From Winogradskyella sediminis (lineage in GTDB: Bacteria; Bacteroidota; Bacteroidia; Flavobacteriales; Flavobacteriaceae), in the NCBI RefSeq assembly GCF_003387355.1, contig NZ_QUNH01000005.1, positions 1 through 64,000 of the forward strand: a DNA stretch of 64,000 nt, given 5' to 3'. The translations under genes were made by a program, and so were the position numbers. Each line of letters opens with the position of its first letter. The first letter of the stretch is position 1. Shown in pieces: positions 6,981 to 50,276 of the stretch. The notes beneath the pieces were generated by a model, which was not told the origin of the DNA, searched no databases, and was given only the letters and a program-made list of their open reading frames with translations.

Positions 6981-7019
6981 ATTTCACTTAATTTGAATTC
7001 AACTTTTGATATATATAAC

Positions 7020-8219: not shown

Positions 8220-8236
8220 AATATCGCATCATAATT

Positions 8237-8515: not shown

Positions 8516-8761
8516 ATGTAAAGCATTTTATTAAAAATAAGTAATATTACTGTAAGCGCATTATTATAGAGTAGAAAAAAGTGATTCTAAAGTAAGCTTT
8601 AATTTTGGTTACTTCAAAATTCTACTTCCTAATCAATACTTCGGAAATATTAAAAAATCACGATTTAAGACTTAACTGGTCTCATTTTAATTAAGCGTTC
8701 GCTATAAATGGTATTACAAATTCAGAATGGGAGAATGAGATACGTAATAAAATATTTCATT

Positions 8762-10027: not shown

Positions 10028-10092
10028 AGATTTATAACGAAATATAGCTATATTTTAGTCTATAAAAGATTGATTTAGCATTCTTTTAAGAC

Positions 10093-11728: not shown

Positions 11729-11789
11729 ATTTATAATTTTAATATCGAAAGATAAATAAAATTATATTTTAAAGCTCTAAAAAAACGAT

Positions 11790-12824: not shown

Positions 12825-12853
12825 GAGGCAGATTACTTTTTAAACTAAGCCCT

Positions 12854-12861
12854 CAAAGATA
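12854..12861 (-). promoter_or_regulatory. Promoter -7 element for the AI-2E family gene
   Basis: The minus-strand sequence TATCTTTG is an exact TAnnTTTG match 30 bases before the start codon. No clear TTG box lies 19 bases upstream. Confidence 0.55.
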
Positions 12862-12896
12862 AGTTAAAATACAGTTTTTAAAAGCTTAAATTGCTG

Positions 12897-14429
12897 TTAA
12901 AATGGTACTCCATCATCCTCTGGTCCACCAAAGGCATCTGAGGCAGACGGGAATTTATCTGGAGTAAAGGTATTATCATTAGCTGCTTCATTCATTTTGG
13001 AATGGTATTCACCAAACGGTGTGTCAAAATCATCTAAATTATCGAACTTACCTAAATGACCGATAAACTTTAATCTAATATTTTCTAAGCCACCATTTCT
13101 GTGCTTTGCTACAATAAATTCTCCTTGACCTTCGGTTGGTGAACGTTCTTCATCATCCCATTCATCAATTTTATAATATTCAGGTCTATAAATAAAGGAT
13201 ACGATATCTGCATCTTGCTCAATGGCACCAGATTCACGTAAATCGGATAGTAAAGGTCTTTTACTTCCACCACGCGTTTCTACAGCACGTGATAACTGAG
13301 ATAAAGCTATTACCGGCACACTTAATTCTTTTGCTAGAGCTTTTAAGTTTCGAGAAATCATGGAAATTTCCTGTTCACGGTTTCCTCCTTTTTGACTTCC
13401 ACCTGCGGTCATTAACTGCAAGTAATCTATCATAATCATCTTAATGCCATATTGAGACGCTAAACGACGCGCTTTTGCTCTTAAGTCGAAAATAGAAAGT
13501 GATGGAGTATCATCTATAAATAACGGTGCTTGCTCTAATGTTTTAACTTTAACATTAAGCTGTTCCCATTCGTGCTTTTCTAATTTACCCGTTCTTAACT
13601 TTTCTGAAGACAAACCCGTTTCACTAGAAATTAGTCGTGTAATTAACTGTACAGAGGACATCTCTAAAGAAAAGAACGCTACAGGTGTATTACTATTAAC
13701 AGCCACATTTCTGGCCATGGTAAGTGTTAAGGCTGTTTTTCCCATACCAGGACGTGCCGCAACAATAATTAAATCACTTGGTTGCCAACCTGAGGTTAAT
13801 TTATCTAACTTATCGAAACCAGAAGGCACACCACTCATTCCCTCTTTATTGGACATTTCTTCGATTTTCTTCTTCGCTTGAATTACCAAACTCTGAGCAG
13901 ATTCTGTAGATTTTTTTACGTTACCTTGGGTGACTTCATACAACTTTGCCTCTGCAGTATCTAATAAGTCAAAAACATCTTTAGTTTCATCATACGCTTC
14001 TTCAATAATTTCGTTTGAAATTTTTATTAAACTTCTCTGAATATATTTCTGAAGAATAATACGTGCATGGAATTCGATATGCGCCGAAGACGATACACGT
14101 TGTGTTAAAGAAATAAGATAAAAATCACCTCCAATAGCTTCTAGCTTTTGATCTTTTTTTAATTGACTAGAAACGGTTAATAAGTCAATAGGCTCACTGT
14201 TTTCGAACAATTTAAAGATGGCTTCAAAGATATACTTATGCGCTTCTTTATAGAACGCATCAGGACTAAGGATATCAATAACTTCATCGACTCCTTTTTT
14301 ATCTATCATCATCGCACCAATTACAACCTCTTCTAAATCAGTTGCTTGAGGAGGTATTTTACCTTTCTCTAAATTAATGATAGTGCCTTTATCAACTTTG
14401 TAGCCTTGTACTGGATTGGGTTGTTTCAT
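12897..14429 (-). CDS. dnaB: Replicative DNA helicase DnaB
   Basis: This 510-residue hexameric helicase unwinds DNA at the replication fork. The N-terminal primase-interaction domain (residues of about 25-130, ATDLEEVVIGAMMIDKKGVDE) is followed by a linker and a RecA-like motor with Walker A ARPGMGKTAL, Walker B in MIMIDYLQLM, and SDLRESGAIEQDAD near the DNA-binding loops. No intein is present. A TTG three codons upstream extends the frame, but ATG 14429 (MKQPNPVQ) is the natural start. TACTTTTG at 14436-14443 would place transcription very near the ATG, so a leaderless mRNA is possible. Confidence 0.96.
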   Translation of the reverse strand: MKQPNPVQGYKVDKGTIINLEKGKIPPQATDLEEVVIGAMMIDKKGVDEVIDILSPDAFYKEAHKYIFEAIFKLFENSEPIDLLTVSSQLKKDQKLEAIGGDFYLISLTQRVSSSAHIEFHARIILQKYIQRSLIKISNEIIEEAYDETKDVFDLLDTAEAKLYEVTQGNVKKSTESAQSLVIQAKKKIEEMSNKEGMSGVPSGFDKLDKLTSGWQPSDLIIVAARPGMGKTALTLTMARNVAVNSNTPVAFFSLEMSSVQLITRLISSETGLSSEKLRTGKLEKHEWEQLNVKVKTLEQAPLFIDDTPSLSIFDLRAKARRLASQYGIKMIMIDYLQLMTAGGSQKGGNREQEISMISRNLKALAKELSVPVIALSQLSRAVETRGGSKRPLLSDLRESGAIEQDADIVSFIYRPEYYKIDEWDDEERSPTEGQGEFIVAKHRNGGLENIRLKFIGHLGKFDNLDDFDTPFGEYHSKMNEAANDNTFTPDKFPSASDAFGGPEDDGVPF

Positions 14430-14542
14430 AAGTAACAAAAGTAGTTAAATAGTGTTGAGGAAATGAAAATCTTCGCTTTACGATTTCAACATATCTTCAA
14501 CAATCTAACTGTTAATAACTTGATTATATTTTTAATAGCGCC

Positions 14543-14575
14543 AAAAAAAACCGAAGCCTAAACTTCAGTTTTTTT
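14543..14575 (-). terminator. Intrinsic terminator between accA and dnaB
   Basis: Read on the minus strand, AAAACTGAAG pairs with CTTCGGTTTT (one wobble) around a 6-base loop, then runs into T residues. It ends the accA transcript before dnaB. Confidence 0.8.
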
Positions 14576-14596
14576 AGTATCCTATGTTTAGTGGAA

Positions 14597-15550
14597 TTAA
14601 TCCTTATAGACACCCATGGCGTCGTATTTTTCCATTCGTTGATTTACTAAATCTTTTGGTGATAAGTTTTTAAGTTCACCATACGCTTTTTCGATTGCAT
14701 TTTTTACTGCTAAAAACGTTTTGTCTCTATCCGTATGAGCTCCACCAAGTGGTTCTTTAATAATTGAATCGACCAATTTCATACGTTTCATATCCTTAGC
14801 TGTAAGTTTTAACGCTTCTGCAGCTTGTTCTTTATATTCCCAGCTTCTCCATAAAATAGAAGAACAAGATTCTGGTGAAATTACAGAATACCAAGTATTC
14901 TCTAACATCATAACACGATCTCCAACACCAATACCTAAGGCTCCACCAGAAGCACCTTCACCAATTATGATGGTGATGATTGGTACTTTAAGACGTGCCA
15001 TTTCTAAAATATTTCTGGCAATTGCTTCCCCTTGTCCGCGCTCTTCTGCTTCTAATCCTGGATAAGCACCTGGTGTATCGATTAACGTTACTACAGGAAT
15101 TCCAAATTTTTCAGCAGATTTCATTAATCGTAAAGCTTTACGATACCCTTCAGGATTAGACATTCCAAAATTACGATACTGTCTTGTTTTGGTATTAAAC
15201 CCTTTTTGTTGTCCAATAAACATATATGATTGGTCACCTATTTTACCTAGACCTCCAATCATGGCCTTATCATCCTTTACATTTCGGTCTCCGTGTAGTT
15301 CTAAAAATGTATCACCACAGAGTGCTTTTATATGATCTAAGGTATAAGGTCTATTAGGGTGGCGAGATAACTGAACACGTTGCCATGCTGAAAGATTTTT
15401 ATAAATATCTTTCTTAGTTTCAGCGAGCTTTTTTTCAATCTGCTTACAAGTTTCGGTGACATCGACATCACTTTCTTTACCTATAATCTCGCATTTATCT
15501 AATTGCTCTTCAAGTTCTTTTATTGGTAATTCAAACTCTAAATATTCCAT
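14597..15550 (-). CDS. accA: Acetyl-CoA carboxylase carboxyltransferase subunit alpha
   Basis: This 317-residue protein has the usual AccA length. With AccD it moves the carboxyl group from biotin to acetyl-CoA, giving malonyl-CoA for fatty acid synthesis. The N-terminus ([16 protein letters not shown]) and the crotonase-like core with [33 protein letters not shown] and [19 protein letters not shown] are diagnostic. It is separated from dnaB by a terminator and from the upstream EamA gene by 145 bases, which include a TAGGTTTG element. Confidence 0.96.
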
Positions 15551-15592
15551 ACAATTTGAAGTTAGTTTTGTTTAGTTAGTATAGTTAGGTTA

Positions 15593-15600
15593 CAAACCTA
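15593..15600 (-). promoter_or_regulatory. Possible accA promoter -7 element
   Basis: Minus-strand TAGGTTTG matches TAnnTTTG 42 bases before the accA ATG; no TTG box is seen at the right spacing. Confidence 0.4.
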
Positions 15601-15695
15601 CGTATTCTTATTTCTATATTAGAAAAAATACTCAAAAAAGTAAGTTCGCATTTTCAATTTACAAAAATAGAATTTATTCAAGAAACATTAAAAAT

Positions 15696-16604
15696 TTAAT
15701 TGGTAATACTATTCGATTTGCGTTTTTGCCTTTTATAATTCTTAAAAATGGCATCGAATAAAACGGTCATTAAAACGAGAATAGCACCGATATAAAATTG
15801 TGGAGACATTTTTTCAGTCTCAGGAAAAAGTGCCAAGGCTATAGCAATACCGTATACAGGTTCTAAGTTATAACTTAAAATAACAGTAAAAGGACTGATA
15901 TATCGCATGATATCTACAGATCCAATAAATGCATAAGCCGTACATACTGAAGCCAAAATAAACAAATACATCCAATCGGAATTTGAAAGTGTAAAAAACT
16001 CAGCATTAAAAGTTTTACCTGTACATAAAATAAAGACCGTTAAAAACAAGACACCACTGACAAACTCATAAAATGAAATCACAGTCGCATTATGCTTTGT
16101 TATAAAAAGACCATTAATGACTGCAAATAATGTTGAGAATAAAGCGGAAAGCAACCCTAAAATAATACCATTAATATATCCCATTTCGCTACTCGTAATT
16201 AAATAGACTCCAAGAATAACAATGATTCCAAAGATAATTTCATAGCCCAGAATACGTCGCTTAAATATTAAAGGTTCTATAAATGAAGCAAAGAAAGCTC
16301 CAGAAGAAAACATAGCTAAAGCAATAGACACATTGGCTTGGTTGATGGCTTCAAAAAAAGTAATCCAATGTAAAGCGATGATTACACCAGCTGCAGAAAA
16401 TTGTAAAAGTGAGGTCTTTGTTATTTTAATATTTACCTGTACGACTTTAATATAAATAAACATTAAAATTCCGGCCATTGCCATTCTATACCAAACGAGT
16501 TCTATGGCACCAATGGTAATTAACTCACCTAAAATGGCTGTAAAACCGGCAATGATAACAAGAAAATGTAAGTGCAGATAATGCTTTAATTTAGCGTTTG
16601 GCAT
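15696..16604 (-). CDS. EamA (DMT) family transporter
   Basis: This 302-residue inner-membrane protein has ten hydrophobic segments arranged as two EamA repeats, and the C-terminus is lysine- and arginine-rich (NYKRQKRKS). Members export amino acids or other metabolites; the substrate is not predictable. Its ATG lies 14 bases inside the 3' end of lptG, so the two genes are translationally coupled, although no functional link is obvious. Confidence 0.9.
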   Translation of the reverse strand: MPNAKLKHYLHLHFLVIIAGFTAILGELITIGAIELVWYRMAMAGILMFIYIKVVQVNIKITKTSLLQFSAAGVIIALHWITFFEAINQANVSIALAMFSSGAFFASFIEPLIFKRRILGYEIIFGIIVILGVYLITSSEMGYINGIILGLLSALFSTLFAVINGLFITKHNATVISFYEFVSGVLFLTVFILCTGKTFNAEFFTLSNSDWMYLFILASVCTAYAFIGSVDIMRYISPFTVILSYNLEPVYGIAIALALFPETEKMSPQFYIGAILVLMTVLFDAIFKNYKRQKRKSNSITN

Positions 16605-17667
16605 TTTGAAGGAGATATACAGCTAAAATACCAAATATTACATTAGGAAACCACACTGCAACTATCGCTGGGAAATTAGATTGTTCTGCCATGACTCCAA
16701 ATACTTTATCAAAGAACACATAAATCATAGCAATGGCAATACCAACGGCTAAATTTGTTCCCATACCTCCACGTCGTTTTACAGACGATACCGCAACTGC
16801 AATAATGGTAAGAATAAATATAGATACAGGTAAACTCCACTTTTTTAATTTCACTACTTCATAGCGACCAATATTTGGCGATCCGCGTCGTTTTTCTGCA
16901 GCAATAAATTTCAATAATTCTCCATAAGATTTCGTCTCGGCAGCATATTGTACGGGAGTAAGATCTTCAAGCTCAAAAGGGAAATCCATAAGTTTCTGAC
17001 CTTCTTGCTCAACCGTTTCAACTCCATCATTAAACGAACGTTTTATATAAGTAATCAGTTTATAGACACTATCTTTTTCAACATAACTAATGCGGTCTGC
17101 AAAGATTTTATATTTCAGTTCGTTATTTTCAAAATGTTCGTAAGTGAATTTTAAACCTGTGCTGGTTTTAGGTATAAAATTACTAACGTAGATATAATCG
17201 TTATCATTAATTTGTTGATACACATCTTTGGTTTGCTGAATAGATCTACCTTTTTTAAGGTATTTAAATTTAAATTCATTAAAACCTTGGCTGGCAATTG
17301 GCGCTAAATACATCCCTAAAAACAAAGCGAAACCTGCAACAATTGAAGCTCCTATTATATACGGCCTTAAAAACCTCGAAAAAGAAACACCCGAACTTAA
17401 AAACGCAACAATTTCTGTATTATTAGCCAGTTTAGAAGTAAACCAAATCACCGATAAAAATAAGAATAATGGAAATAGAAGATTAGCGAAATAAACAGTA
17501 AAATCTAAATAATAAAATGCTACCTCTCCAAATGGCACATCATTTTCTAACATCTTACCTACCTTCTCCGCTAAGTCTACAATTATTCCGATAGGAACAA
17601 ACAGCAATAACATCATCAGGAATGTAAATAAATACCGTTTTAATATGTACCAATCTAGTATTTTCAA
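16591..17667 (-). CDS. lptG: LptF/LptG family lipopolysaccharide export permease
   Basis: This 358-residue YjgP/YjgQ family permease starts MKILDWYILKRYLFTFLMML. It has three N-terminal membrane segments, a periplasmic beta-jellyroll region (about residues 130-260) and three C-terminal segments. LptF and LptG form the membrane part of the ABC machine that extracts LPS for transport to the outer membrane. The opening is closer to LptG than LptF, but the symbol is a best guess. It sits 58 bases downstream of tgt and overlaps the EamA gene. Confidence 0.85.
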   Translation of the reverse strand: MKILDWYILKRYLFTFLMMLLLFVPIGIIVDLAEKVGKMLENDVPFGEVAFYYLDFTVYFANLLFPLFLFLSVIWFTSKLANNTEIVAFLSSGVSFSRFLRPYIIGASIVAGFALFLGMYLAPIASQGFNEFKFKYLKKGRSIQQTKDVYQQINDNDYIYVSNFIPKTSTGLKFTYEHFENNELKYKIFADRISYVEKDSVYKLITYIKRSFNDGVETVEQEGQKLMDFPFELEDLTPVQYAAETKSYGELLKFIAAEKRRGSPNIGRYEVVKLKKWSLPVSIFILTIIAVAVSSVKRRGGMGTNLAVGIAIAMIYVFFDKVFGVMAEQSNFPAIVAVWFPNVIFGILAVYLLQNAKR

Positions 17668-17725
17668 GTTGCTCGTTTAATTATGGATTAAAATTATAAT
17701 TTCTGAATTTACACTAAAAATTACC

Positions 17726-18856
17726 TTACAGTCTGTTGTCCATTTGCTTTACCATTTTATCCTTCCAAGTACCAAAATCACCTGCAATTATGTGTTTTCG
17801 GGCTTCTCTCGTTAACCATAGATAAAACCCTAGGTTATGAATAGTTGCAATTTGTTTTCCTAATAATTCATTTACAGTGAACAAATGTCTTAAATATGCT
17901 TTGCTATATTCTGTATCTACAAAGGTTATTCCCATTTCATCTATGGGTGAAAAATCATTTGCCCATTTTAAATTTTTGATATTAATAGAGCCATGTGCTG
18001 TAAATAACATACCATTTCTAGCATTTCTTGTTGGCATCACACAATCAAACATGTCTACACCTAACGCAATATTTTCTAATATATTGATTGGTGTCCCTAC
18101 TCCCATTAAATACCGCGGCTTATCCTCTGGTAGAATGCTACAAACCACATCGGTCATTGCATACATTTCTTCTGCAGGCTCTCCTACAGACAATCCACCA
18201 ATGGCATTACCTTCAGCTCCTGCATTGGCAATATATTCTGCAGATTGTTGACGTAAATCTTTGTACGTACTTCCTTGCACAATTGGAAAAAACGTCTGTT
18301 CGTAATCGTATGTAAACGGAGTCTTTTTTAAATGAGTTAAACAACGCTCTAACCAACGATGCGTCATATGCATAGAACGCTTAGCGTAATGATAATCGCA
18401 TGGATAAGGTGTACACTCATCAAAGGCCATAATAATATCTGCGCCAATACTACGTTGAACTTCCATTACATTTTCTGGTGTAAATACATGGTAGCTACCA
18501 TCAATATGCGATTTAAACTTTACACCTTCTTCTTTTATCTTTCTATTAGACGATAATGAATAAACTTGATATCCTCCAGAATCAGTTAAGATATTACGAT
18601 CCCAATTCATAAATTTATGCAAACCGCCTGCTTGTTCTAAAATTGGAGTTTGAGGTCTTAAATAAAGATGGTATGTATTTCCTAAAATAATATCTGGATT
18701 GATATCATTTTTAAGTTCTCTTTGATGCACACCTTTTACCGAAGCTACAGTGCCTACTGGCATAAAAATAGGTGTTTCTATAGTGCCATGATCTGTAGTA
18801 ATAGATCCTGCTCTAGCTTTGGTTTGCTTATCGTTTGCTACTCTTGTAAATTTCAT
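17726..18856 (-). CDS. tgt: tRNA-guanine transglycosylase lacking the zinc cysteines
   Basis: Tgt replaces guanine 34 with the queuosine precursor preQ1 in tRNAs for Tyr, His, Asn and Asp. The 376-residue protein has the catalytic features: LTDSGGYQVYS, GGLSVGEP, and the nucleophile region MFDCVMPTRNARNG. Typical bacterial enzymes bind zinc through a CxCxxC motif plus a histidine. Here the aligned positions are G309, T311 and D314 (in EMGITFVDTEYSKAYLRH), while the histidine H340 (ATIHNLGFY) remains. The protein is otherwise intact, so this seems to be a zinc-free lineage variant rather than decay. It heads a likely tgt-lptG-EamA operon. Confidence 0.93.
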   Translation of the reverse strand: MKFTRVANDKQTKARAGSITTDHGTIETPIFMPVGTVASVKGVHQRELKNDINPDIILGNTYHLYLRPQTPILEQAGGLHKFMNWDRNILTDSGGYQVYSLSSNRKIKEEGVKFKSHIDGSYHVFTPENVMEVQRSIGADIIMAFDECTPYPCDYHYAKRSMHMTHRWLERCLTHLKKTPFTYDYEQTFFPIVQGSTYKDLRQQSAEYIANAGAEGNAIGGLSVGEPAEEMYAMTDVVCSILPEDKPRYLMGVGTPINILENIALGVDMFDCVMPTRNARNGMLFTAHGSINIKNLKWANDFSPIDEMGITFVDTEYSKAYLRHLFTVNELLGKQIATIHNLGFYLWLTREARKHIIAGDFGTWKDKMVKQMDNRL

Positions 18857-40741: not shown

Positions 40742-42685
40742 TTAGTTTTCTACTTTATTTTTTATATCTGTTAAAGTGTCTTGATTGACTTCAACATTAA
40801 AGCGATCGTAGAGGCTGTTAATCCAATTGGTTTCAATTTCCGCTTGGTAATCATTGATGACACTTCCCCTTGCTTCTTCCAAAGTTTTTTGTCCGGCTGG
40901 TAAAACTTCAATCACATTGATAACATGGTAAGCTTCATTATGCTTGTAAATTTCTGATATACCTTTTTTAGCTTCGAAATTTGAAGGCATAATTGAATTA
41001 TCTGCAGCGTACGTTCCTTTTGTAAAGATAACGTTTTGCTTTTCCTTAGTATTTAGCGCACTTTCAATGTCTGCTTCAGAAGCTCCTTTTTTCATCATTT
41101 TAAGAATCTTCTTCATCTTAGATTTACTAGCAGACGTTGCCATAACGACACCCACACGGTCATTCCATTGATAATTAGATTTGTTTTTAGCGTAGAACTC
41201 TTCAATACCTATAGAATCTTTAGAAGCCTTATTCCATACTTCTTTTTCCATTAAATCAAATAATAATAAACCGTCTCTATATTCTTTTAAGATGTTGGCA
41301 TATTCCGGATTTTCAACTTCTAAATTATCCTCTCTATACTTTAAAATTGATTTTTCGAAGAAGCTTTCAAACTCGTTATCAATTACGGTTTCGAAAGGCA
41401 CATTTTTCCCAGTATAAATACGCTGAACATTTTTTAAATGTTTTCCAAAATCGTTAAAAGTGAAAATGGTTTTATTTATTGAAAATAAGGTTTCGGTTCC
41501 TTTGAAATCCGCAGGTACCTCCCAAGTACGATTATAAAAATCTGTAGTCAGTAAACCTGTAAAATAGGGTTTAGCTTCAGCATTATAATCTATTTCGTAA
41601 CGATTTTTAAGTTTCTCAACTAAAGATTTCTGAATTAATTTAGATCTTGAATCTCTTTTCACTTTGGCTTCTAAAGCCGATTTTACATTCTCTAAAGGTT
41701 CTATGGGTTGCCATTCAATTCGTTTTACAATATGCCAACCATAGGCTGATTTAAATGGCTTACTAATTTCTCCATCTTGACTTAAACCAAAAGCCACATC
41801 CTCAAACTCTGTAGAACTTAGTTGACCACTCTTAAATGGTGCAATCCTTCCTCCTTCTCTGGCTGAACTTTTATCTTCTGAAAACTGTTTTGCTAATGCG
41901 TCAAAACTTTCACCTTGTTTTAGTTTTTTGTAAATATCATTAATTCGATCTTCTGGATTTACAAGTGAATCTTTAGGATTTAAATTTACCATAATATGTG
42001 CTACAGTAACCGTCCCACGAGAAGGACGTCTGTCATTAACTTTTACTACATGGTAACCAAACTGCGTACGAAATGGCATTGAAATTTCTCCCTCTTTGGT
42101 ATTATACGCGGCAGTTTCAAAATCGTACACCATTTTAAACGCTGAAAAATAACCTAAATCTTCAAGAAAGATAGTTTTACCGTTATGCATTTCAGCTTTT
42201 ACCTTGTCGTAACCTTCTTCCAAAGCGCGTTTTCTTAACGCTAAAACTTCGTTATAAGCATTAATGGTATCTTTTGCTGAAGCATCTAAGCGCACTAAAA
42301 TATGAGAAGCGTTAATATCTATATTACTGCGTTCATACGCTTCTTGTACTAACTCTTCTGTAACTTTATTTTCTGAAATATAATTGCTTATCAACTGCTT
42401 CTTGTATCTAGCAAATTCGCGCTGGTAGCTTTTGTCTTCATCCAACTTTAAGCGTTTAGCTTCTTTTAATTTGAGCTGGTATTCGGTAAATAGTTTTAAG
42501 TAGCCATTAACATCCTTTTGACTTTCATCTTGAACTAAATCTAAATTTTTATTATAGACTCTTAAAAATTCTGAAGCCATTATTGATTCTCCATCTACTT
42601 TGAGAAGCACGGCGTCATTATCTTGCGAAAAAGAAAAATTTAGTGCAAAAAACACTAAAAACAAACATTTCAAACTAAGTTTCAT
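40742..42685 (-). CDS. Large PpiC/SurA-type peptidyl-prolyl isomerase
   Basis: This 647-residue exported protein has a signal peptide ending ALNFSFSQ. After a SurA-like helical segment come two parvulin domains: one starting near residue 125 (INASHILVRLDAS, FRTQFGYHVVKV) and one near residue 225 (VTVAHIMVNLNP, FKSAYGWHIVKR). A long C-terminal helical region follows. It is the first gene of the four-gene foldase/MoxR operon and has a full-consensus promoter. Confidence 0.9.
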   Translation of the reverse strand: MKLSLKCLFLVFFALNFSFSQDNDAVLLKVDGESIMASEFLRVYNKNLDLVQDESQKDVNGYLKLFTEYQLKLKEAKRLKLDEDKSYQREFARYKKQLISNYISENKVTEELVQEAYERSNIDINASHILVRLDASAKDTINAYNEVLALRKRALEEGYDKVKAEMHNGKTIFLEDLGYFSAFKMVYDFETAAYNTKEGEISMPFRTQFGYHVVKVNDRRPSRGTVTVAHIMVNLNPKDSLVNPEDRINDIYKKLKQGESFDALAKQFSEDKSSAREGGRIAPFKSGQLSSTEFEDVAFGLSQDGEISKPFKSAYGWHIVKRIEWQPIEPLENVKSALEAKVKRDSRSKLIQKSLVEKLKNRYEIDYNAEAKPYFTGLLTTDFYNRTWEVPADFKGTETLFSINKTIFTFNDFGKHLKNVQRIYTGKNVPFETVIDNEFESFFEKSILKYREDNLEVENPEYANILKEYRDGLLLFDLMEKEVWNKASKDSIGIEEFYAKNKSNYQWNDRVGVVMATSASKSKMKKILKMMKKGASEADIESALNTKEKQNVIFTKGTYAADNSIMPSNFEAKKGISEIYKHNEAYHVINVIEVLPAGQKTLEEARGSVINDYQAEIETNWINSLYDRFNVEVNQDTLTDIKNKVEN

Positions 42686-42735
42686 AATTTAATCGTGATT
42701 TGTATTGATATAAATAACGTACTTTTAAAACTCAG

Positions 42736-42765
42736 CAAAAGTAACATAAATAGCGTATTTAGCAA
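42736..42765 (-). promoter_or_regulatory. Promoter of the foldase-MoxR operon
   Basis: On the minus strand, TTG (42765-42763), 19 bases, then TACTTTTG (42743-42736), 51 bases before the start codon of the large PpiC-type gene. Confidence 0.7.
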
Positions 42766-42937
42766 GCGGAATAAAAGGCATTATTTTAATAATCACTGCT
42801 AGTTACGTCGTAAAAATCACACCCGAATGATAAGTAGTTATAATTTACAATGATTTTAACAATTAAAATTAGCCTAACATCGATTAGATTTAAATATCGC
42901 TAAGGCATTTTATAATTTTATAAAAATTGTAAAGTGC

Positions 42938-43387
42938 ATGAAATACACCAGCGAGATCCTTATTAATGAATCCATTTCGGAAGTAATTAAAAAATACAGT
43001 TCTGCAGCCAACTTAAAACACTGGCAAGCAGGTTTAGTTAGCACCGAACACATTTCTGGAAATCCGAGTGAAATTGGTGCTACGATGCGTTTAATCTTTA
43101 ACTTTGGCAAACGCAAAATGGAAATTATTGAAACGGTAACCAAACAAGATTTTCCTAATGAATTACATCTTACTTATACTACAAATGGTGTACGCAATAT
43201 CCAAGAAAATTATTTTAAGGTTTTAGAAAACAATACTACAAAATGGATTTCTAAAACAGAATGCCAACCCACAAGTTTTAAAATGAGCGTCATGTTGTTT
43301 TTAATGCCTGGTTTATTTAAAAAACAGACAGAAACCTATATGAATAATTTTAAAAATTTTGTAGAACAAGGAACTTCTATTTGTTAG
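42938..43387 (+). CDS. SRPBCC (START-like) domain protein
   Basis: This 149-residue soluble protein spans one SRPBCC/polyketide-cyclase-like fold: an N-terminal strand MKYTSEILINESISEV, a helix with LKHWQAGLV, central strands and a long C-terminal helix (KKQTETYMNNFKNFVEQ). The fold binds hydrophobic ligands in a cavity. No ligand can be named. It precedes a small conserved protein by 48 bases. Confidence 0.82.
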   Translation: MKYTSEILINESISEVIKKYSSAANLKHWQAGLVSTEHISGNPSEIGATMRLIFNFGKRKMEIIETVTKQDFPNELHLTYTTNGVRNIQENYFKVLENNTTKWISKTECQPTSFKMSVMLFLMPGLFKKQTETYMNNFKNFVEQGTSIC

Positions 43388-43435
43388 GCTTACTTTTACA
43401 CCCATTCAACTTTACATAACAACAACATTAAAACA

Positions 43436-43669
43436 ATGCGCAAATTAAAATTGATTTGGGATTTTAGAGGACCAGCAGGACAAAAAACCGCAGAACACCA
43501 TCTTGTACATTTAAAAGAATACATAGAAATTAACCAACTAGACATTACGGTTACTGGTGTAGAAACTATTAACGATATGCATAGCTTAGCCTATTTAGTC
43601 GTTGATGAAGCCGAAATGAAACCAATTAGAGACCAATTAAAACCGCATAGAGGTCTGGTTTATTCTTAA
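43436..43669 (+). CDS. Small conserved protein of unknown function
   Basis: This 77-residue soluble protein starts MRKLKLIWDFRGPAGQKTAE and contains HHLVHLKEYIE, ending near KPHRGLVYS. It has no signal, membrane segment or motif I recognise. Codon use resembles its neighbours and the ATG is well placed, so it looks real. It may share a transcript with the SRPBCC gene and ends 16 bases from the convergent crtY. Confidence 0.75.
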   Translation: MRKLKLIWDFRGPAGQKTAEHHLVHLKEYIEINQLDITVTGVETINDMHSLAYLVVDEAEMKPIRDQLKPHRGLVYS

Positions 43670-43685
43670 TTTTTACTTTCTGTTT

Positions 43686-44825
43686 TTAAAATAAGCGCTT
43701 TAAAAATGCCTGTATAAATCGTTTTGGTGGTACAGATAAAATAATTTTTAAATCTTCAATTAAAGTCGATTCTTCGTCTAAAAACCGAAAAATAGTGGTT
43801 ACATCAGCCTTTTTAAACATAGATGAAAAAAGGGCTGCACCTTCATTGTTATGTTTAGCTAAAACATCTAAAAATATTAGATCATAGAACCTGTATTTAG
43901 TACGTTTATTAAATGTAGACAAATCCTGATTTTTCTTTAGAAACTCCACAACGTCTTTTGTTTTTTTTGAAGTACTTGTAAAGGTGTAGCCTGTACTTGC
44001 TTTTGTCCAACCTCCTGCTGTTCCAATATGCAGAATACGATTAGAATTTAAACGGTTAAACTTAAAAGAGGTCATGGGAATATTTCCCTTTTCCTTTTCA
44101 ATTATAGTATAATCAACAATATTTTTACGGTCTAGGTAACGTTTTATAGCCTCTTCATAGACTCTATATTCTAACAATTCTTTAGAAAATAAAGTATACT
44201 CAAATAAGGCTGTTTTTTTGTCTATGGGCAAAACATACATAAAGCGCGTATTTCCGTTTTGAGGCACTGAAAAATCCATAAATGTCGCTTTAGAATCATC
44301 AAACGTATCTACTGGTGTTTTTATAAACCAACCTACAAAATGCTGATGAATTAAAGGATACTTATCTTGCGATTTATATATATCAGAATTAGGTAAGCTA
44401 TTAAAAATATTAGTGCCTTTATATTTTCCATTTGTAGTCTCAATTATAACACTATGGACTTGTTCGGAGACATTGTTAACCTTACCTTCAACAAAACTAA
44501 TATTTGATTTAGTGTTTATTTCTTTCCATAATGTATCATAAAAGTTGCCACTCCTTATCATTTTATACTGAAACGGCATTATAGCAATGTTTTTAGAAAA
44601 CCATGCACTACCAAAATAAATCTTAGACCATTGTTTACAAACAAGTGCATCCCATTCTCCTACTCCGTTTTCCCAATAACACCAAGTTCTGTCGTTGCCC
44701 TTATTTTTTACTTGGTCTATGATTAAAATAGATTTATCATCAAAAAAAGCATCTTGAGACATTCGGTATGCTAAAAGCAACCCAGACGCACCTGCACCTA
44801 AAATAATATAATCGTATGTAATCAA
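43686..44825 (-). CDS. crtY: Lycopene beta-cyclase, TTG start
   Basis: This FAD/NAD-binding enzyme of about 379 residues closes both ends of lycopene to give beta-carotene. The N-terminal motif YDYIILGAGASGLLLAYRM and the later IGTAGGWTKASTGYTF segment are typical of bacterial CrtY. No ATG is in frame near the 5' end. TTG at 44825 gives ITYDYIILGAG right at the N-terminus, as expected, whereas TTG at 44849 overlaps the promoter element. Unusually, it is separated from crtI-crtB-crtZ by 14 kb. Confidence 0.92.
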   Translation of the reverse strand: MITYDYIILGAGASGLLLAYRMSQDAFFDDKSILIIDQVKNKGNDRTWCYWENGVGEWDALVCKQWSKIYFGSAWFSKNIAIMPFQYKMIRSGNFYDTLWKEINTKSNISFVEGKVNNVSEQVHSVIIETTNGKYKGTNIFNSLPNSDIYKSQDKYPLIHQHFVGWFIKTPVDTFDDSKATFMDFSVPQNGNTRFMYVLPIDKKTALFEYTLFSKELLEYRVYEEAIKRYLDRKNIVDYTIIEKEKGNIPMTSFKFNRLNSNRILHIGTAGGWTKASTGYTFTSTSKKTKDVVEFLKKNQDLSTFNKRTKYRFYDLIFLDVLAKHNNEGAALFSSMFKKADVTTIFRFLDEESTLIEDLKIILSVPPKRFIQAFLKRLF

Positions 44826-44846
44826 CGTGGTATTTAATTTTAACAG

Positions 44847-44854
44847 CAAAAGTA
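44847..44854 (-). promoter_or_regulatory. Promoter -7 element for crtY
   Basis: Minus-strand TACTTTTG followed by C, 21 bases upstream of the proposed TTG start at 44825. Confidence 0.5.
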
Positions 44855-45061
44855 AACCATTTTGTTTGGTTTAAGAGGTCGCTAGTTGTGGTTGATGGTA
44901 AAATACAACATCTTAATTTGAAGGGTCATTCCATTTGTTTCAGATATAAAACATTAATATACTGCATAAAAAAATTATATTTACATTAGTGCATTAGCCA
45001 AAAACACGACTTATCCAGAAAGTTTTATGGGATATAAACTATTAGGGTTAATATATAACGA

Positions 45062-45071
45062 GTTGTACAAC
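45062..45071. repeat. Left boundary of cassette-like unit 1
   Basis: GTTGTACAAC (self-complementary), followed by ATTT. The same 10-mer recurs at 45522-45531 right after the gene it precedes, preceded there by AAAAAC. See the cassette finding. Confidence 0.6.
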
Positions 45072-45073
45072 AT

Positions 45074-45517
45074 TTGATAAATACGAAATTCATATCATTT
45101 TTAGTTCTGATTTTAATAATCGGATGCAAAGCAAAAAGCGGAATAGAATATTCTACTCAAAATAAATTTGAATTTGAATATTTCAATACCGACAAAAGTT
45201 TTGAATTGGAATTAGTTGAATTTTATCGGAATTCAGCAAGTTGCGGAACTGAAGGATTGCCATATGCACTTTTGATTGGAAAAACAAAAACGGAATCTTT
45301 ACCTGAAAAAATTTCTGTTCTTTCATATTGCGATGATAGAATATTTGAAATAGGAGACAAATTAAAAATAGAACCAACAGAAAATCCAACAAAAAAAACA
45401 ACAATGAATCCGATATATTTTGTGAAAGACACGATAATAAACGGAAACAAAAATCGGTGGATAATTGGCTCGGAATACAAAGCGATTTGGGGAAGACCAA
45501 TTAAACGAAATAAATAA
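45074..45517 (+). CDS. Lipoprotein of unknown function in a cassette-like unit
   Basis: This 147-residue protein has a short lipoprotein signal (FLVLILIIGC, C18). The mature part includes SASCGTEGLPYALLIGK and ends in basic residues; I recognise no domain. The apparent start is TTG at 45074, which sits within the ATTT of the left boundary repeat, with no alternative ATG before the signal peptide. The gene is flanked on both sides by GTTGTACAAC and stands alone, as a gene cassette would. Confidence 0.65.
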   Translation: MINTKFISFLVLILIIGCKAKSGIEYSTQNKFEFEYFNTDKSFELELVEFYRNSASCGTEGLPYALLIGKTKTESLPEKISVLSYCDDRIFEIGDKLKIEPTENPTKKTTMNPIYFVKDTIINGNKNRWIIGSEYKAIWGRPIKRNK

Positions 45518-45521
45518 AAAC

Positions 45522-45660
45522 GTTGTACAACACCGTGTATAATTCATTGCTAGTTCTAGCCTGCTTGGAAATTCCTTCGGAATTTCCTCTGGTTCGTTTT
45601 AGTTTACTAATTTAGTTGCTCAAACACGCAACGAAATCATACACAAAACCGTTGTAACAC
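45522..45660 (+). repeat. attC-like imperfect inverted-repeat element A
   Basis: This 139-bp element lies between two single genes. The 5' arm (GTTGTACAACACCGTGTATA...) pairs in blocks with the 3' arm (...ATACACAAAACCGTTGTAAC): ACAAC/GTTGT, GTGTAT/ATACAC, ATTGC/GCAAC. Internal hairpins are GCTAG/CTAGC (45549-45560) and GGAAATTCC/GGAATTTCC (45567-45587). A diverged homologue begins at 46246. Confidence 0.65.
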
Positions 45661-45680
45661 ATTTAACCAAAAAACTAAAA

Positions 45681-46241
45681 ATGAATGAAATAAGAATAAC
45701 TTTGAGCAAAACAAAATTAGTGCTTATGCTAATTGGCTGTATTGCCTTTATTTTTGGTGGAGTTTATATGATTATAGAACCTTATAAACCTGACAATAAT
45801 CGGTATTCCGAGGATTTTCTTTTATTTATTGGACTAGCTAGTGTTATATTCTTCGGTTTAGGTCTCTTTTTTATCTTAAAAAAAATTTTTAGCACAAAAA
45901 TTGGATTGATTATTAATGAACTAGGAATTATTGATAACTCAAATGCAATTAGTCTTGGTCTAATTGAATGGAACGATATATCTGGAATTTCTATAATTCA
46001 ACCTCAAGTTCCAGTTTTTAATTTAGGGACAACTGTCTCTACTAAAAAAATGATAATCCTGAAAACTGACAATCCGGAAAAATTTATTGAACGATTAAGA
46101 AATCCGATTTTAAAAGAAACTTTGATATACAATAATAAAATTTATGGTTCCTCTTTAACTATTATAAGTTCAGGTCTGAATATAAAATTTTCGGAATTAG
46201 AAAATACAGTTAAAGAACAGATGCCTAAATGGAAAAAATAA
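45681..46241 (+). CDS. Two-helix membrane protein (STM3941-like)
   Basis: This 186-residue protein has two membrane segments (about residues 12-32 and 46-67) and a cytoplasmic C-terminal domain resembling the STM3941 family (pleckstrin-like), with IGLIINELGIIDNS and IEWNDISGISI. Its function is unknown. It is bounded on the left by GTTGTAACAC (45651-45660) and on the right by the exact reverse complement GTGTTACAAC (46246-46255), which starts four bases after the stop codon. Confidence 0.75.
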   Translation: MNEIRITLSKTKLVLMLIGCIAFIFGGVYMIIEPYKPDNNRYSEDFLLFIGLASVIFFGLGLFFILKKIFSTKIGLIINELGIIDNSNAISLGLIEWNDISGISIIQPQVPVFNLGTTVSTKKMIILKTDNPEKFIERLRNPILKETLIYNNKIYGSSLTIISSGLNIKFSELENTVKEQMPKWKK

Positions 46242-46245
46242 AAAC

Positions 46246-46380
46246 GTGTTACAACAACATTTATAACTAATAGCTGTGTTGAGCCTACTTGCAGAAATTC
46301 CTTCAGGATTTAAACTGGTTTCTAAATATGTATTAACTTAATTGCTTAACCACAAAACATATTGAAACTCGCTAGGCCCT
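46246..46380 (+). repeat. attC-like element B (diverged copy of element A)
   Basis: It starts with GTGTTACAAC after AAAAC, as element A starts with GTTGTACAAC. Shared internal blocks in the same order include AGCCT[A/G]CTTG, AAATTCCTTC, CTGGTT and a TTAATTGCT-like stretch. The 3' arm with GTTG is not recognisable, so the right boundary is uncertain. Confidence 0.5.
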
Positions 46381-46457
46381 CAATTAAGAAAGCCAATAAA
46401 ACAAACCAAGTATTAAGTATTCTCGATGCTTGGTTACTATAAACTTAAATTAACTAT

Positions 46458-46814
46458 ATGCTAACAGACATCAATCCAAAATTACCCATGCGTGATAAAA
46501 AAGTGACTCGAGAATTTTACTCAAACCAATTGGGTTTTAAGGAATTTGGTAGCACTGATTATGAAGGTTATTTAATGATGGAAAAAGATCGCGTTCAAAT
46601 TCATTTCTTTGAATTTAAAGAAATTGACCCGAAAGAAAATTATGGACAAGTTTATATTAGAACGAACCATATTGACGCATTTTATAAATCATTATTGGAA
46701 AAACGGACAAAAATTCACCCTAATGGAACATTGGAAATTAAACCTTGGGGACAAAAAGAATTTTCTATTCTTGATCCCGACAGTAATTTATTGACATTTG
46801 GCCAAGCTATCTAA
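46458..46814 (+). CDS. VOC superfamily (glyoxalase/bleomycin resistance-like) protein
   Basis: This 118-residue protein has the paired beta-alpha-beta-beta-beta modules of the vicinal oxygen chelate superfamily: PKLPMRDKKVTREFYSNQLG at the start and WGQKEFSILDPDSNLLTFGQ at the end. The family includes glyoxalases, dioxygenases and drug-binding resistance proteins; this size suits a bleomycin-binding-like protein, but no activity is proven. It follows element B and may be another cassette, although no matching GTTG boundary is visible. Confidence 0.85.
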   Translation: MLTDINPKLPMRDKKVTREFYSNQLGFKEFGSTDYEGYLMMEKDRVQIHFFEFKEIDPKENYGQVYIRTNHIDAFYKSLLEKRTKIHPNGTLEIKPWGQKEFSILDPDSNLLTFGQAI

Positions 46815-46846
46815 ATTGAGTTCCTAATTAATAAAACCTGAATACA

Positions 46847-47032
46847 ATGAAAACCATATCTAAAAGAAAATCAGCGCTACTATTGTCAACTGGTATGTTG
46901 CTAATAGCAATATCACTAACAAGCACTAAATATCTAGAAGTACCCGATTTTGCAAAAGGTACTTGTATAGGCATTGGAATTGGGTTGTTACTTATCTCAC
47001 TCTTTTTTAGCAATTATAAAAATAATAAGTAG
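46847..47032 (+). CDS. Small two-helix membrane protein
   Basis: This 61-residue protein starts MKTISKRKSALLLSTGMLLI and has two hydrophobic helices (about residues 9-25 and 38-53) with a basic C-terminus (NYKNNK). The positive-inside pattern suggests both ends are cytoplasmic. An opposite-strand frame covers the same bases, but the plus-strand protein has the more natural composition. Its function is unknown. Bases 47033-47274 hold no gene. Confidence 0.6.
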   Translation: MKTISKRKSALLLSTGMLLIAISLTSTKYLEVPDFAKGTCIGIGIGLLLISLFFSNYKNNK

Positions 47033-47274
47033 TAAACAGCACAACAAACATGGTGAAAACGATTGAAAAAACACCATAAAACTCTAAGAAGTTAAAATTA
47101 AGAAGCCAAACACAAACTTACATAACCAAGACTCTACATGTTACGTAAACTAATTTTATACTAGTAAACCGTTTCTAAGAGGTAATTATAGGGACAACAA
47201 GATGTTCTTGTATATGAAGTCTATAAGTTGAATGCTGTCTCAAAAAAAATTAAATAATCACAGTACTTCCTCCC

Positions 47275-48159
47275 TTATTTATCATGTCGTCTTTCTGCAT
47301 AATCATAACCTTCTTGCCACCATTTTTCCATTAGGCGTTTGCTAAAAATTAAAGAATTTTCTGTGAGACTGGTTGGTGTGTAATACAAATTGAGCTTTAC
47401 ATTTTTATTGCGAGCTGCCAATTTTCCTATAATAATATCATTTCGCTCTACCTGATCTAACAAATGTCCGAACAAGCTAATCATTAACGAAAACGGATTC
47501 TTTCCCAGCACTTTTTGCTTGCCTAAGGTTTCCGCCTCTAAAACAATAGCATCTACTTCTGTGGCACCGCGTTGTATAGCTTCTCTAATAGGAATTACAG
47601 AACCTAAACCACCATCTGCATACTCATAACCATCGACTTTTGCTAAAGACATAAACGGAATGTAATTACACGAAATCCATATCCAGTTACAAAATTCCTC
47701 ATAAGAACACTCTTGTATCGATTTATATTCCACACGATTCATAGACAAATTAGATACCGTAACTACCACGTCATGCTTTTCCTTTTTAATTTTTAAATAC
47801 TCTTCATAAGTTACATTTTTCCGAATATGCTTGCGCAAGGCTTTACTTTCTCCAAAAGTGCGTTTACGTCTAATAAACTGCCATAAAGAATTTACAAAAT
47901 CAATAGACACATACTCTCTATCTCCTTTTTTATGCTGCACGAATGGACTAATACTAAAAATATTATGCTGCTGAACATTGGTAAAAATGTCGTAAAGTTT
48001 ACCAATTTCGTTAACGGCTAAATGCGGAATTAAGAGACTTCCGGTTGAAGTTCCTAAAAACATATCGTAATTATGTTTTTCGCGTTCTATTAAGTATTGC
48101 GCAACACCTCCTGCAAATGCTCCTTTACTTCCTCCTCCGGATATCACTAATGCTCGCAT
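47275..48159 (-). CDS. Patatin-like phospholipase
   Basis: This 294-residue lipid acyl hydrolase has a Ser-Asp dyad. The oxyanion motif is SGGGSKGAFAGG (residues of about 7-18), the nucleophile elbow GTSTG (near residue 38) and the catalytic aspartate in YADGGLGS (near residue 175). There is no signal peptide, so it is probably cytoplasmic or exported by another route. Substrate and role are unknown. It is monocistronic. Confidence 0.9.
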   Translation of the reverse strand: MRALVISGGGSKGAFAGGVAQYLIEREKHNYDMFLGTSTGSLLIPHLAVNEIGKLYDIFTNVQQHNIFSISPFVQHKKGDREYVSIDFVNSLWQFIRRKRTFGESKALRKHIRKNVTYEEYLKIKKEKHDVVVTVSNLSMNRVEYKSIQECSYEEFCNWIWISCNYIPFMSLAKVDGYEYADGGLGSVIPIREAIQRGATEVDAIVLEAETLGKQKVLGKNPFSLMISLFGHLLDQVERNDIIIGKLAARNKNVKLNLYYTPTSLTENSLIFSKRLMEKWWQEGYDYAERRHDK

Positions 48160-48296
48160 GTTATTATGGTTTATTTTATTTTATTCCTAATGGAATTCAG
48201 TTTTATTGTTTTCACTTCAAATAACAGCTTTATAATTCTATGCTATTATAATTCCTGTTAAGTTCTACTTTGAGATTTCATTACAATGTATAACGA

Positions 48297-50276
48297 CTAC
48301 TCTTTTTCTAATTTTTTAGAAAATTCCTTAGCAAATTTTACAAGTCTCCAATTGTGATGAGATTTCGCTATTTCAAGATTAGAAAGACACTTTTCGTTAC
48401 AAGATTGTATTAAAGCCAGATAATTAAAAGCTTTTATTCTTACATCGGCATTATATTTTTGATCTGTATAACGTACAAGTTCATCAAATAGTTCTTGTTT
48501 ATTATCCGCTTCGTAATACGGTGTGTTTAGATTTAATACAATCCAGAGCATACGTACATTTTTATCGCTAAACCCTTCAATATGTCTTGTTTTAGAAAGG
48601 TATTTAGAACGCTCTAGCGGAAAATTAACCCACAAATTATATAAAGCATTTTCTATAGTAACATACGACTTATCATTGAGTAACGACTCGTAATCGGTTT
48701 TTATCGCTTCTGGAATTTTGGTAACATATTCCGAAATAGTCTGTCGAACTTTTAAGCTATTCTTAAACACCTGTGAAGTAACCAATGAAGGCATTTGCGA
48801 TATCACTTTAATCTTTGCTTCATCAGAAACATAATATTTAAGATATTCTGCACATTTAGATGTTTTAGCTTCGCAGTCAACCATAGCATATTCATTGATA
48901 AAACTCGATTGTTGTTTTAAAATTGCAAATGCTTCTTCGTAAGGAAAAGCTTTGTTTTTAATCCAAAAACTTACAAAGTAAGATAAGGATTGTCCGTATA
49001 AATTTTCAACTTCAGCAATAAAATTAGAAGTATCTACACTAGCGAATTGATATTTTTTTAGATAATTCTTCACGGCTTTTTTAAACACCTCATCACCAAC
49101 AGCACTTCTTAACGCATGTAAAACCCACGCTCCACGTTGATAAAACGTTAAACTACTCGATTTAGGATCTAAAAGCGAGGTACCATTACCGGACAAATCT
49201 TGTCTGCTAAGTTCTATAATAGACTGCAACAGTTTAAAATTGAAATAGTCTTCACCAAACACTTCGCGCTCTGCTAATAGCGCATAATAGGTAGCAAAAC
49301 CTTCTTGCAACCAATGGTGCTCTCCAGAACTTGCTGTTACCAAATCTCCAAACCATTGATGTGCTAATTCGTGCGCATTTACATTTACGTAATTTTTATC
49401 GTTAAAACCAATTGCATCAACCATAAAAGCATCTGAAAAAATAGTGACGCTCGTATTTTCCATACCTGCATATAGAAAATCGTGAACAGGAACTTGTTTA
49501 TAGATTTGCCATGGATAAGCAAAACCTATTTCTTCTTCCAAAAAATCGAACATTTTTTTAGAATAACGATACGTGGGCTCCACTTTTAAAGAATCTTCTG
49601 GATAGAAGTAATACTCGAGAGAAACTCCGCTGTTTGAAGTTTCGGTCTTTTTATGATACCTCCCATATACAAAAGCTAATAAATAACTAGAAATTGGTTT
49701 TTGCATGGTATAAGACACTTTTTCTTGTCCGTTTGGCAAAAGAATGTCATCTGTTTTAATACCGTTTGCAATAAAATTATATTCGGAATCCTTAATTGCA
49801 CTGAGATTAAATATCATTTTATCATTTACATCATCTAAACTAGGAAACCAATGACTTGTATATTTTCCTTGGCCTTGCGTCCAAACTTGTGGTTCGTTTT
49901 CACGTTGCAAAAAATACAAAGCTTGTTTAGGCTTTACAACATAGTCTAATGAAATAATATAGGATGAGTTTTTTTTAAACTGATAAGCAAAATAGATTTT
50001 TTGATTGTGATAAGTGTAGTTTAATTGTTTTGCTTCAGCATTAGTCTCACCTACTCTAATCTCTACATTATTAAAACTCATATTAACGGCATCAAGAAAA
50101 ATAGAGTCTACAGATTTTAAAATATCGAGATGATAACTTACTTTCCCTTTAACTTTAGACGAATCTACCATAATATTAAGTAGAGCGTCCGCTCTTTTAA
50201 AATCAACATATTCAGTTTGTTGCGCATAAGACAAACTGACAATACAGAAACAAAACGCAATAAAAAATTTCTTCAT
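48297..50276 (-). CDS. M1-family metallopeptidase
   Basis: This 659-residue exported zinc aminopeptidase has a signal peptide ending SLSYAQ. The exopeptidase motif appears as YAGMENTS and the zinc site as HELAHQWFGDLV with the downstream glutamate in WLQEGFATYY. A C-terminal helical ERAP1-like region follows. It probably trims peptides in the periplasm for nutrition. The frame is open 12 codons further upstream, but ATG 50276 gives the signal peptide. Confidence 0.92.
   Translation of the reverse strand: MKKFFIAFCFCIVSLSYAQQTEYVDFKRADALLNIMVDSSKVKGKVSYHLDILKSVDSIFLDAVNMSFNNVEIRVGETNAEAKQLNYTYHNQKIYFAYQFKKNSSYIISLDYVVKPKQALYFLQRENEPQVWTQGQGKYTSHWFPSLDDVNDKMIFNLSAIKDSEYNFIANGIKTDDILLPNGQEKVSYTMQKPISSYLLAFVYGRYHKKTETSNSGVSLEYYFYPEDSLKVEPTYRYSKKMFDFLEEEIGFAYPWQIYKQVPVHDFLYAGMENTSVTIFSDAFMVDAIGFNDKNYVNVNAHELAHQWFGDLVTASSGEHHWLQEGFATYYALLAEREVFGEDYFNFKLLQSIIELSRQDLSGNGTSLLDPKSSSLTFYQRGAWVLHALRSAVGDEVFKKAVKNYLKKYQFASVDTSNFIAEVENLYGQSLSYFVSFWIKNKAFPYEEAFAILKQQSSFINEYAMVDCEAKTSKCAEYLKYYVSDEAKIKVISQMPSLVTSQVFKNSLKVRQTISEYVTKIPEAIKTDYESLLNDKSYVTIENALYNLWVNFPLERSKYLSKTRHIEGFSDKNVRMLWIVLNLNTPYYEADNKQELFDELVRYTDQKYNADVRIKAFNYLALIQSCNEKCLSNLEIAKSHHNWRLVKFAKEFSKKLEKE

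Follow-up and report, generated by a model that had tools for sequence, protein, structure and literature searches.

Genes and features at the crtY-patatin locus

The window analysed here, a stretch of 64,000 nucleotides from Winogradskyella sediminis, carries crtY and a patatin gene 2.4 kb apart. Two gene cassettes occupy part of this interval, which also includes a glyoxalase-like gene and an ORF of 61 aa. Major features of this two-cassette mini-array are listed in Table 1. The protein of cassette 1 has, by eye, a lipoprotein-like N-terminus, and it matches no Pfam family above cut-off and no NCBIfam model at E<=0.1. The attC-like element behind it consists of a 6x3 spacer loop, a 16-bp L stem with one extra base and a variable terminal part. 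The second element ends without GTT, so that no clean third cassette follows it. A glyoxalase/bleomycin-resistance-like protein (46458-46814), which stays under the NCBIfam cut-offs, adjoins this decayed last element. The start arm of cassette 2 was also found on a non-homologous cassette at another locus (L251).

Table 1. Coordinates of the mini-array in the window
Feature	Position	Strand	Basis
Left junction ATATATAACGA, attI-like, preceding the first GTT	45051..45061	+	sequence; motif of relatives' junctions
Cassette 1 start arm GTTGTACAACATTT	45062..45075	+	sequence
Cassette 1 gene, ORF of 147 aa, TTG start uncertain	45074..45517	+	
Cassette 1 end arm AAACGTTGTACAAC	45518..45531	+	reverse complement of the start arm except at the A.C position
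attC-like element 1 (AAC..GTT)	45529..45653	-	bottom-strand fold; R1 model
Cassette 2 start arm GTTGTAACACATTT	45651..45664	+	sequence
Cassette 2 gene, 186 aa, STM3941 family	45681..46241	+	NF041635, 132.6 bits, cut-off 40
Cassette 2 end arm AAACGTGTTACAAC	46242..46255	+	sequence
attC-like element 2, degenerate right end	46253..46359	-	model positions 2-109 of 129 matched

The original prediction, made from the letters of the window alone, held that two consecutive genes are each flanked by a unit-specific 10-mer and its exact reverse complement, as integron cassettes are. The 10-mers are where they were said to be, with GTTGTACAAC at both 45062 and 45522 around the first gene, and GTTGTAACAC at 45651 and GTGTTACAAC at 46246 around the second. 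Their complementarity is confirmed and extends further, to GTT and seven bases (N7), an A facing a C, and TTT facing AAA; in cassette 2 the extended pair is GTTGTAACACATTT and AAACGTGTTACAAC. By itself, the window is not above chance for matched 10-mer pairs. It contains six exact pairs of GTTN7 and reverse complement at distances of 300-1500 bp, while 30 simulated windows have a mean of 3.8 such pairs and a maximum of 9. Chance matching cannot be excluded from the window alone; it is excluded by the rest of the genome.

Cassette boundaries in the genome and its relatives

The genome (3.80 Mb, 32 contigs) has 40 scored matches of the intergenic element among 97 candidates, and the window together with 20 fetched stretches of the same genome holds 123 element matches. 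Within the arrays the elements are on the same strand and the cassettes are spaced about 0.3-3.2 kb. Contigs C8, C11, C13, C14 and C16 end in or near elements; the repeats probably break the assembly, and the array sizes are therefore lower bounds.

Cassette anatomy and unit boundaries are shown by the matching of the arms. Among the 97 own-genome cassettes between consecutive elements, the two N7 sequences that flank the gene agree at 7/7 in 51 and at >=5/7 in 92, against 1.2% and about 12%, respectively, when arms are randomly re-paired. Across the intergenic element a 7/7 match occurs in 0 of 112 cases, so the claim that the match spans the gene unit and not the intergenic element holds. 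(Of the 123 elements, 11 without AAC and 5 without GTT were dropped from this set.) Outside the genome, the >=5/7 test is passed by 110 of 143 cassettes in a first set and by 235 of 238 in 20 further stretches, which were picked for already holding element matches. In all stretches examined it is passed by 437 of 478 cassettes, with 155 distinct N7 among the 437, and failed by 41; undetected elements may account for part of these failures. The counts omit short duplicate loci (L050-L078, in the 97/143 set) and cassettes below 150 or above 4000 bp. Co-variation of the boundary 10-mers across each gene thus holds in arrays of many genera. In the arrays of Algibacter onchidii XY-114 (L175) and Seonamhaeicola aphaedonensis CECT 8487 (L190), for example, each with 7 elements, 6 of 6 cassettes have matching arms.

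The arms have a common layout of GTT+N7, then an A mostly opposite a C, usually with TTT/AAA after it. The base that follows N7 is A at the start of all 437 cassettes, and its partner at the end is C in 379 of them. C precedes GTT in 564 of 570 elements. In the own genome, the base following GTT is R in 93 of 97 cassettes; a C, G or T comes second in 96 of 97, after which the composition is mixed. In 172 of 202 cassettes the longest ORF has the orientation of the cassette (for ORF, wobble and homologous-pair counts, only cassettes with an arm match of >=5/7 were used). Locus L092 contains, at about 6600-18000, four gene-less cassettes of 304-319 bp without a convincing ORF, three of which are alike in their longest short ORF. 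At locus L016, one element (2294-2422) is inverted against its array.

The attC-like element and its fold

The fold of the element was derived from 69 sequences, out of 71 chosen as diverse from 107. The bottom strand pairs AAC with GTT, opens into the 6x3 loop in 69/69 elements and continues with the 16-bp L stem; 98.4% of the cells are paired. Two-sided changes are seen in 12 of the 16 L-stem pairs. All 500 shuffles stay short of the observed values; in slid controls, pairing falls to 30-54%. Because the pairing scheme came from the same sequences, covariation outweighs the pairing percentage. Most of the stems are devoid of extrahelical bases: the L stem has equal arms of 16 in 60 of 69 elements and one extra base in the other 9, the one in the window included. 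At locus L257, the IntI attCs have one arm with additional bases.

The structure is strand-biased. Two bottom-strand G.T wobbles are nearly fixed, one in 69/69 rows and another in 64/69. Where the arms mismatch, the mismatch pairs as G.T on the bottom strand in 82 cases versus 13 on the top strand (p=2e-13, related cassettes being treated as separate), and a further 234 pair on neither strand. In 389 of 396 rebuilt circular junctions the bottom strand gives a better fold than the top strand, and in 382 of 396 a better one than it has within the array. Since G.T pairs are rewarded in the folding energies, these figures are not independent of the wobble count. That such circles and single-stranded DNA occur as intermediates is an inference.

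A conserved structured RNA or attenuator between genes, with end matches arising by chance, would also explain why the element is conserved and structured, but can be all but ruled out. Rfam gave nothing notable for positions 42000-48500 of the window, its two matches (E 2.9 and 4.8) lying well under their gathering scores; the near-fixed bottom-strand G.T pairs mean that a top-strand transcript would carry A.C mismatches; and the arm match across the gene far exceeds that of re-paired arms.

Cassette copies, cargo and history

Exact-edged copies of whole cassettes are present. One cassette of 579-587 bp is complete in three places of the own genome; its right-hand neighbour is different at each, and its right end, just ahead of the following GTT, does not vary. 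Two additional copies, truncated at contig ends, could represent the same places. Genomes G014 and G068 have cassettes identical over 704/704, 1677/1677 and 705/705 bp at two places, with edges at GTT. The right flanks differ in all three and the left flanks in two, the third sharing 57 of 60 bases to its left. Since the identity of copies ends at the next GTT, past the element, the element belongs to the upstream gene. Such edges are consistent with crossing-over within GTT, which has been described for integrons (PMC8876359), though the exact crossover base is inferred.

The cargo is diverse. Among 76 own-genome cassette proteins there are 53 Pfam families, none in more than two proteins, with examples such as GNAT, ParE and Phd/YefM toxin-antitoxin, MutH and AbiJ; 22 PADLOC models are represented in the cargo. 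The units could alternatively be independent transposon-like units with terminal inverted repeats and the element an unrelated filler, and every gene does have its own inverted terminal repeat. This explanation is close to excluded, however, as the element travels with the upstream gene, the arms vary between units (the 155 distinct N7) and the cargo is mostly not transposases (an rve domain in 2 of 76).

Homologous cassettes were compared in pairs at 70% coverage or more. Those with 25-70% protein identity have an identical 7-mer in 7 of 13 pairs versus 1.2% expected, and those above 90% keep it in 13 of 14. The retention among distant pairs suggests that cassettes are old, persistent units. 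One gene with 97% protein identity at L009 (oriented 2643) and L175 (oriented 12518) has changed its arms at both ends: three N7 positions and one outer position differ, each compensated at the opposite end, and the two copies have different element subtypes. Arms are therefore mostly retained with their cassette, and sometimes both alter together. With one query, a single copy of the element (79% identity) turned up among plasmids, on CP116298.1 of Tenacibaculum finnmarkense (103007-103145), and none in phages.

The crtY-patatin site in relatives

The locus was compared with 29 same-genus crtY loci taken with 1.5-kb flanks. Neither window cassette gene has a tblastn match (E<=1e-4) in them. 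The original prediction would have been refuted by the same genes standing with the same flanks in all relatives; such fixed synteny was not found for either gene. The distance between patatin and crtY is 15-118 bp in 8 of the 29 loci and 914 bp in one; in 20 no patatin falls inside the flank. Evidence for an empty site, which had been proposed as a check, rests on the adjacency in those eight loci. The junction base cannot be placed, because the intergenic sequence is too diverged. We infer that the cassettes were either inserted between crtY and patatin or lost by the relatives.

The recombinase and its arrays

That no integrase is present, as the original prediction stated, is true of the window, and its contig (C5) has no PF00589 match, but the statement fails for the genome. 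Contig C3 encodes a 401-aa tyrosine recombinase (423300-424505) whose gene stops some 30 bp short of the first cassette in the C3 array. The tyrosine recombinase that was to be looked for elsewhere in the genome is thus found, and it heads arrays. The genome has eight other PF00589 matches. The C3 recombinase resembles XerA (5hxy) and IntI4 (2a3v), and a structure search with the full model likewise returns Xer and IntI4.

The recombinase lacks the 42-residue IntI insertion near patch III. Tested against the IntI profile, it leaves a gap at profile positions 179-240 and scores 196.6 bits against a cut-off of 265. Recombinases of this kind come in two types: LONG, with a N-terminal domain of ~75 aa (predicted alone, pLDDT 84), and SHORT, with 272-330 aa and without that domain. 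As measured by alignment, the distance from catalytic Arg I to the Arg of HxLRH is 92-93 residues in 35/35 LONG and 92 in 6/6 SHORT recombinases, and 134 in 13/13 IntI of the phylum. In a quick tree of 102 rows without bootstrap, the 13 IntI form one clade (SH-aLRT 99), and all LONG and SHORT recombinases are with 30 relatives (71 rows) on another branch (85). The L196 recombinase comes from a contig that bears the label Candidatus Undinarchaeales. It can be aligned with the LONG type over almost its whole length and falls beside IntI in the quick tree (90); a binning error is not excluded.

The LONG N-terminal domain has its best match, though only a weak one, in the XPB N-terminal domain (Z 7.0, rmsd 1.9, 58 aligned, 10% identity), tied with one to an eIF1-like fold (Z 6.3, rmsd 3.8, 74 aligned), and its Foldseek match is weak too (E 0.11). 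The match to HARP (4o66), ranked 18th in Foldseek, does not suffice for a claim.

The recombinase is linked to the arrays. In 30 of 36 other loci with both recombinase and elements, the array lies downstream on the same strand, as it does in the own genome. It is upstream and divergent in the remaining six, namely the SHORT loci L249-L253 and L203. The SHORT loci (L249-L253, genome G001 included) constitute a second platform layout, with arrays found by the same element profile. In L249, L250, L251 and L253 the arm test is passed by only 10 of 25 cassettes, and SHORT cassette limits are therefore less well resolved.

A generic chain search, blind to the element and controlled with block shuffling, was also used. 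For the IntI regions it gave 14 cassettes in L257 versus 2-7 in shuffles, 6 versus at most 3 in L259, and 4 versus at most 2 in L260, while L254, L255 and L256 were not above shuffles. Of the SHORT regions only L250 was above (12 versus at most 7); L249, L251, L252, L253 and L258 were not, so that the element profile is relied on for these. The element profile finds nothing in L258.

The attI-like junction

In LONG loci the stop codon of the recombinase gene is followed by (G)ATATAACNA directly before GTT, or a variant of it. The motif occurs in 32 of 37 loci and is absent in five (the pattern was written after inspecting the sequences). An element lies within 5 kb of 24 of the 32 junctions and not of the other eight. 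Of these 24 junctions, 19 are followed by a 7-mer that agrees at >=5/7 with the end of the first cassette, 13 of them perfectly, and five fail the test. From this we infer that a junction with the function of attI adjoins the recombinase and that the first cassette starts there. The window junction, ATATATAACGA before GTT, is of the same kind, without a recombinase gene alongside the mini-array.

Six of 31 junctions have a TAnnTTTG box at position -22/-23 relative to attI, against a background of 0.02 per junction. TAnnTTTG resembles the Bacteroidetes promoter consensus. It is conceivable, though no more than a guess, that the box is a promoter at attI, and expression of cassettes from such a promoter is likewise inferred. 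The box was also seen in L020. Scans for sigma-70 promoters and for terminators were at background.

Distribution

In a sample of 100 Flavobacteriaceae genomes, each from a different genus, 86 have R1 elements (E<=1e-3, with no more than 35 scored in each genome). Across the phylum, 46 of 198 sampled genomes have them (E<=1e-6, no more than 17 scored). The recombinase profile A2, at E<=1e-70, matches 66 of the 100 family genomes and 74 of 247 phylum genomes. Of the 100, 64 have both element and recombinase, 22 the element only, 2 the recombinase only and 12 neither, a significant co-occurrence (Fisher p=2.8e-5).

The 22 of 86 element-bearing genomes without a recombinase match at E<=1e-70 speak against our main reading. 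So do the cassettes and junctions that fail the arm test, the 97% gene pair with changed arms, and the mini-array of the window, whose last site is decayed and which lacks an adjacent recombinase. It is possible that another host recombinase acts. A rival view takes the cassettes as real but has XerC/XerD or an ICE integrase as their recombinase and the adjacent gene as a passenger. It is favoured by the same 22 genomes and by the eight other PF00589 matches of the own genome. Against it, the own genome and 30 of 36 other loci have the array behind the gene and in the same orientation, and the association of element and recombinase is significant. We regard it as unlikely, while the role of the adjacent recombinase as the catalyst remains inferred.

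No IntI over cut-off was found in any of the 100 Flavobacteriaceae genomes, the own genome included, and 14 control genomes were silent too. The search can detect IntI, since 70 of 247 phylum genomes have TIGR02249 matches over cut-off. These results bear on the explanation that the arrays are canonical remnants of IntI integrons that have lost their integrase (CALIN). In its favour are the same cassette anatomy, the IntI integrons elsewhere in the phylum, the IntI array of L257 with likewise unit-specific arms, and one element near IntI in L254. On the other hand, the family is without IntI over cut-off, the arrays are headed by a different recombinase clade, and the attC type differs, with equal L-stem arms in 60 of 69 elements, unlike the L257 sites. 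CALIN is therefore very unlikely.

A probable integron-like system without IntI

The two genes noted in the window are very likely mobile cassettes of an integron-like system that is common in Flavobacteriaceae (probability about 0.85), with its function inferred. The integron-like cassette reading of the original prediction is upheld, having passed its own refutation tests, and its suspicion of a system not well described is supported. In the open-access literature searched (titles and abstract starts), no paper on such Flavobacteriaceae arrays was found, which does not show their absence from print. On this reading, Bacteroidota have cassette arrays served by a recombinase without I2; that they work in the manner of integrons is inferred.

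In the proposed mechanism, a unit would consist of GTT (or TT) and the N7 arm, usually one gene, the complementary arm ending in AAC and an attC-like site of ~125 bp. The circular cassette would join its two arms, and its bottom strand would fold into a hairpin with a long unit-specific R stem, the 6x3-nt spacer loop, the 16-bp L stem and a variable top. The XerA-like recombinase lacking the IntI insertion would insert the circle at the attI-like junction past its own stop codon, with the crossover inside the GTT triplet, and the array would grow downstream in the same direction. The window would then contain, between crtY and patatin, a mini-array of two cassettes that starts at an attI-like site and has no recombinase of its own.

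The system has much in common with IntI integrons (class 1-3 and Vibrio chromosomal). Both have arrays of single-gene cassettes with an attC-like site at the 3' side, a GTT core, a cassette start complementary to its own R'', a bottom-strand fold and an attI-like head junction. They also share the C before GTT, that is, the G after AAC on the bottom strand that most attC have (Bouvier 2009). Unit-specific arms do not stand as a hallmark of the flavobacterial system, given that the canonical IntI array L257, of the same phylum, has them. The flavobacterial core sites do not strictly fit GTTRRRY / RYYYAAC; this misfit is weak evidence of a difference, as the L257 array is not strict either. The real differences are in the recombinase, in the attC stem and, for the LONG type, in the orientation of the platform. 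Unlike IntI, the flavobacterial recombinase lacks the additional domain and falls outside the IntI clade. LONG recombinases are co-directional with the array and have the extra N-terminal domain; the usual integron layout, with the integrase divergent from the array, is seen only in L249-L253 and L203 of the 36 loci. The L stem has no regular extrahelical base, where the integron criterion is two or three, and the long R arm has a near-fixed A.C (bottom G.T) step. With Xer recombinases (XerA, XerC/XerD) the system shares a catalytic core that is near XerA by sequence and fold. XerCD has no I2-like domain and the CTXphi stem no extrahelical bases (Escudero 2016). Unlike Xer, the flavobacterial recombinases form a separate branch, have the LONG N-terminal domain and are genetically linked to large cassette arrays.

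A bolder reading, which we hold to be more doubtful than probable by a small margin, is that the system forms an integron class of its own, whose cassettes recombine as folded single strands without an I2 domain or regular extrahelical bases. It could be either a surviving Xer-like stage that predates I2 or the product of independent evolution; in the latter case, and as tentatively as the reading itself, the N-terminal domain would bind DNA structure and, with the bottom-strand G.T pairs, supply the strand choice. With unit-specific arms, the site would on this bolder reading fold fully only in the circle, and the 382 of 396 rebuilt circles that fold better are what arm pairing predicts. If so, capture may be easier than excision, a ratchet that would build large arrays. 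The origin of I2 has been posed as a chicken-and-egg paradox of whether the domain or attC came first (Escudero 2016). AttC-like sites together with an I2-less recombinase are the state missing from that argument, and their existence makes the question testable.

The integron integrase has been defined by its additional domain (PMC9668308), and one genome survey retained only sequences with that domain or the related patch (PMC2426708). Surveys that require the domain would miss arrays whose recombinase is without it, a possible reason for the neglect of the flavobacterial system. If our main reading is true, a major environmental group of bacteria harbours unrecognised cassette reservoirs (in 86 of 100 family genomes). 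The single complete Bacteroidetes integron in the IntegronFinder 2.0 paper, that of Salinibacter ruber M1, shares with the flavobacterial arrays the phylum and the cassette array, and was found via IntI and attC models; the flavobacterial arrays are absent from the relevant sections of that paper. Our 70 of 247 phylum genomes with IntI are far above this single case, and the make-up of the databases and the taxonomy may explain part of the excess.
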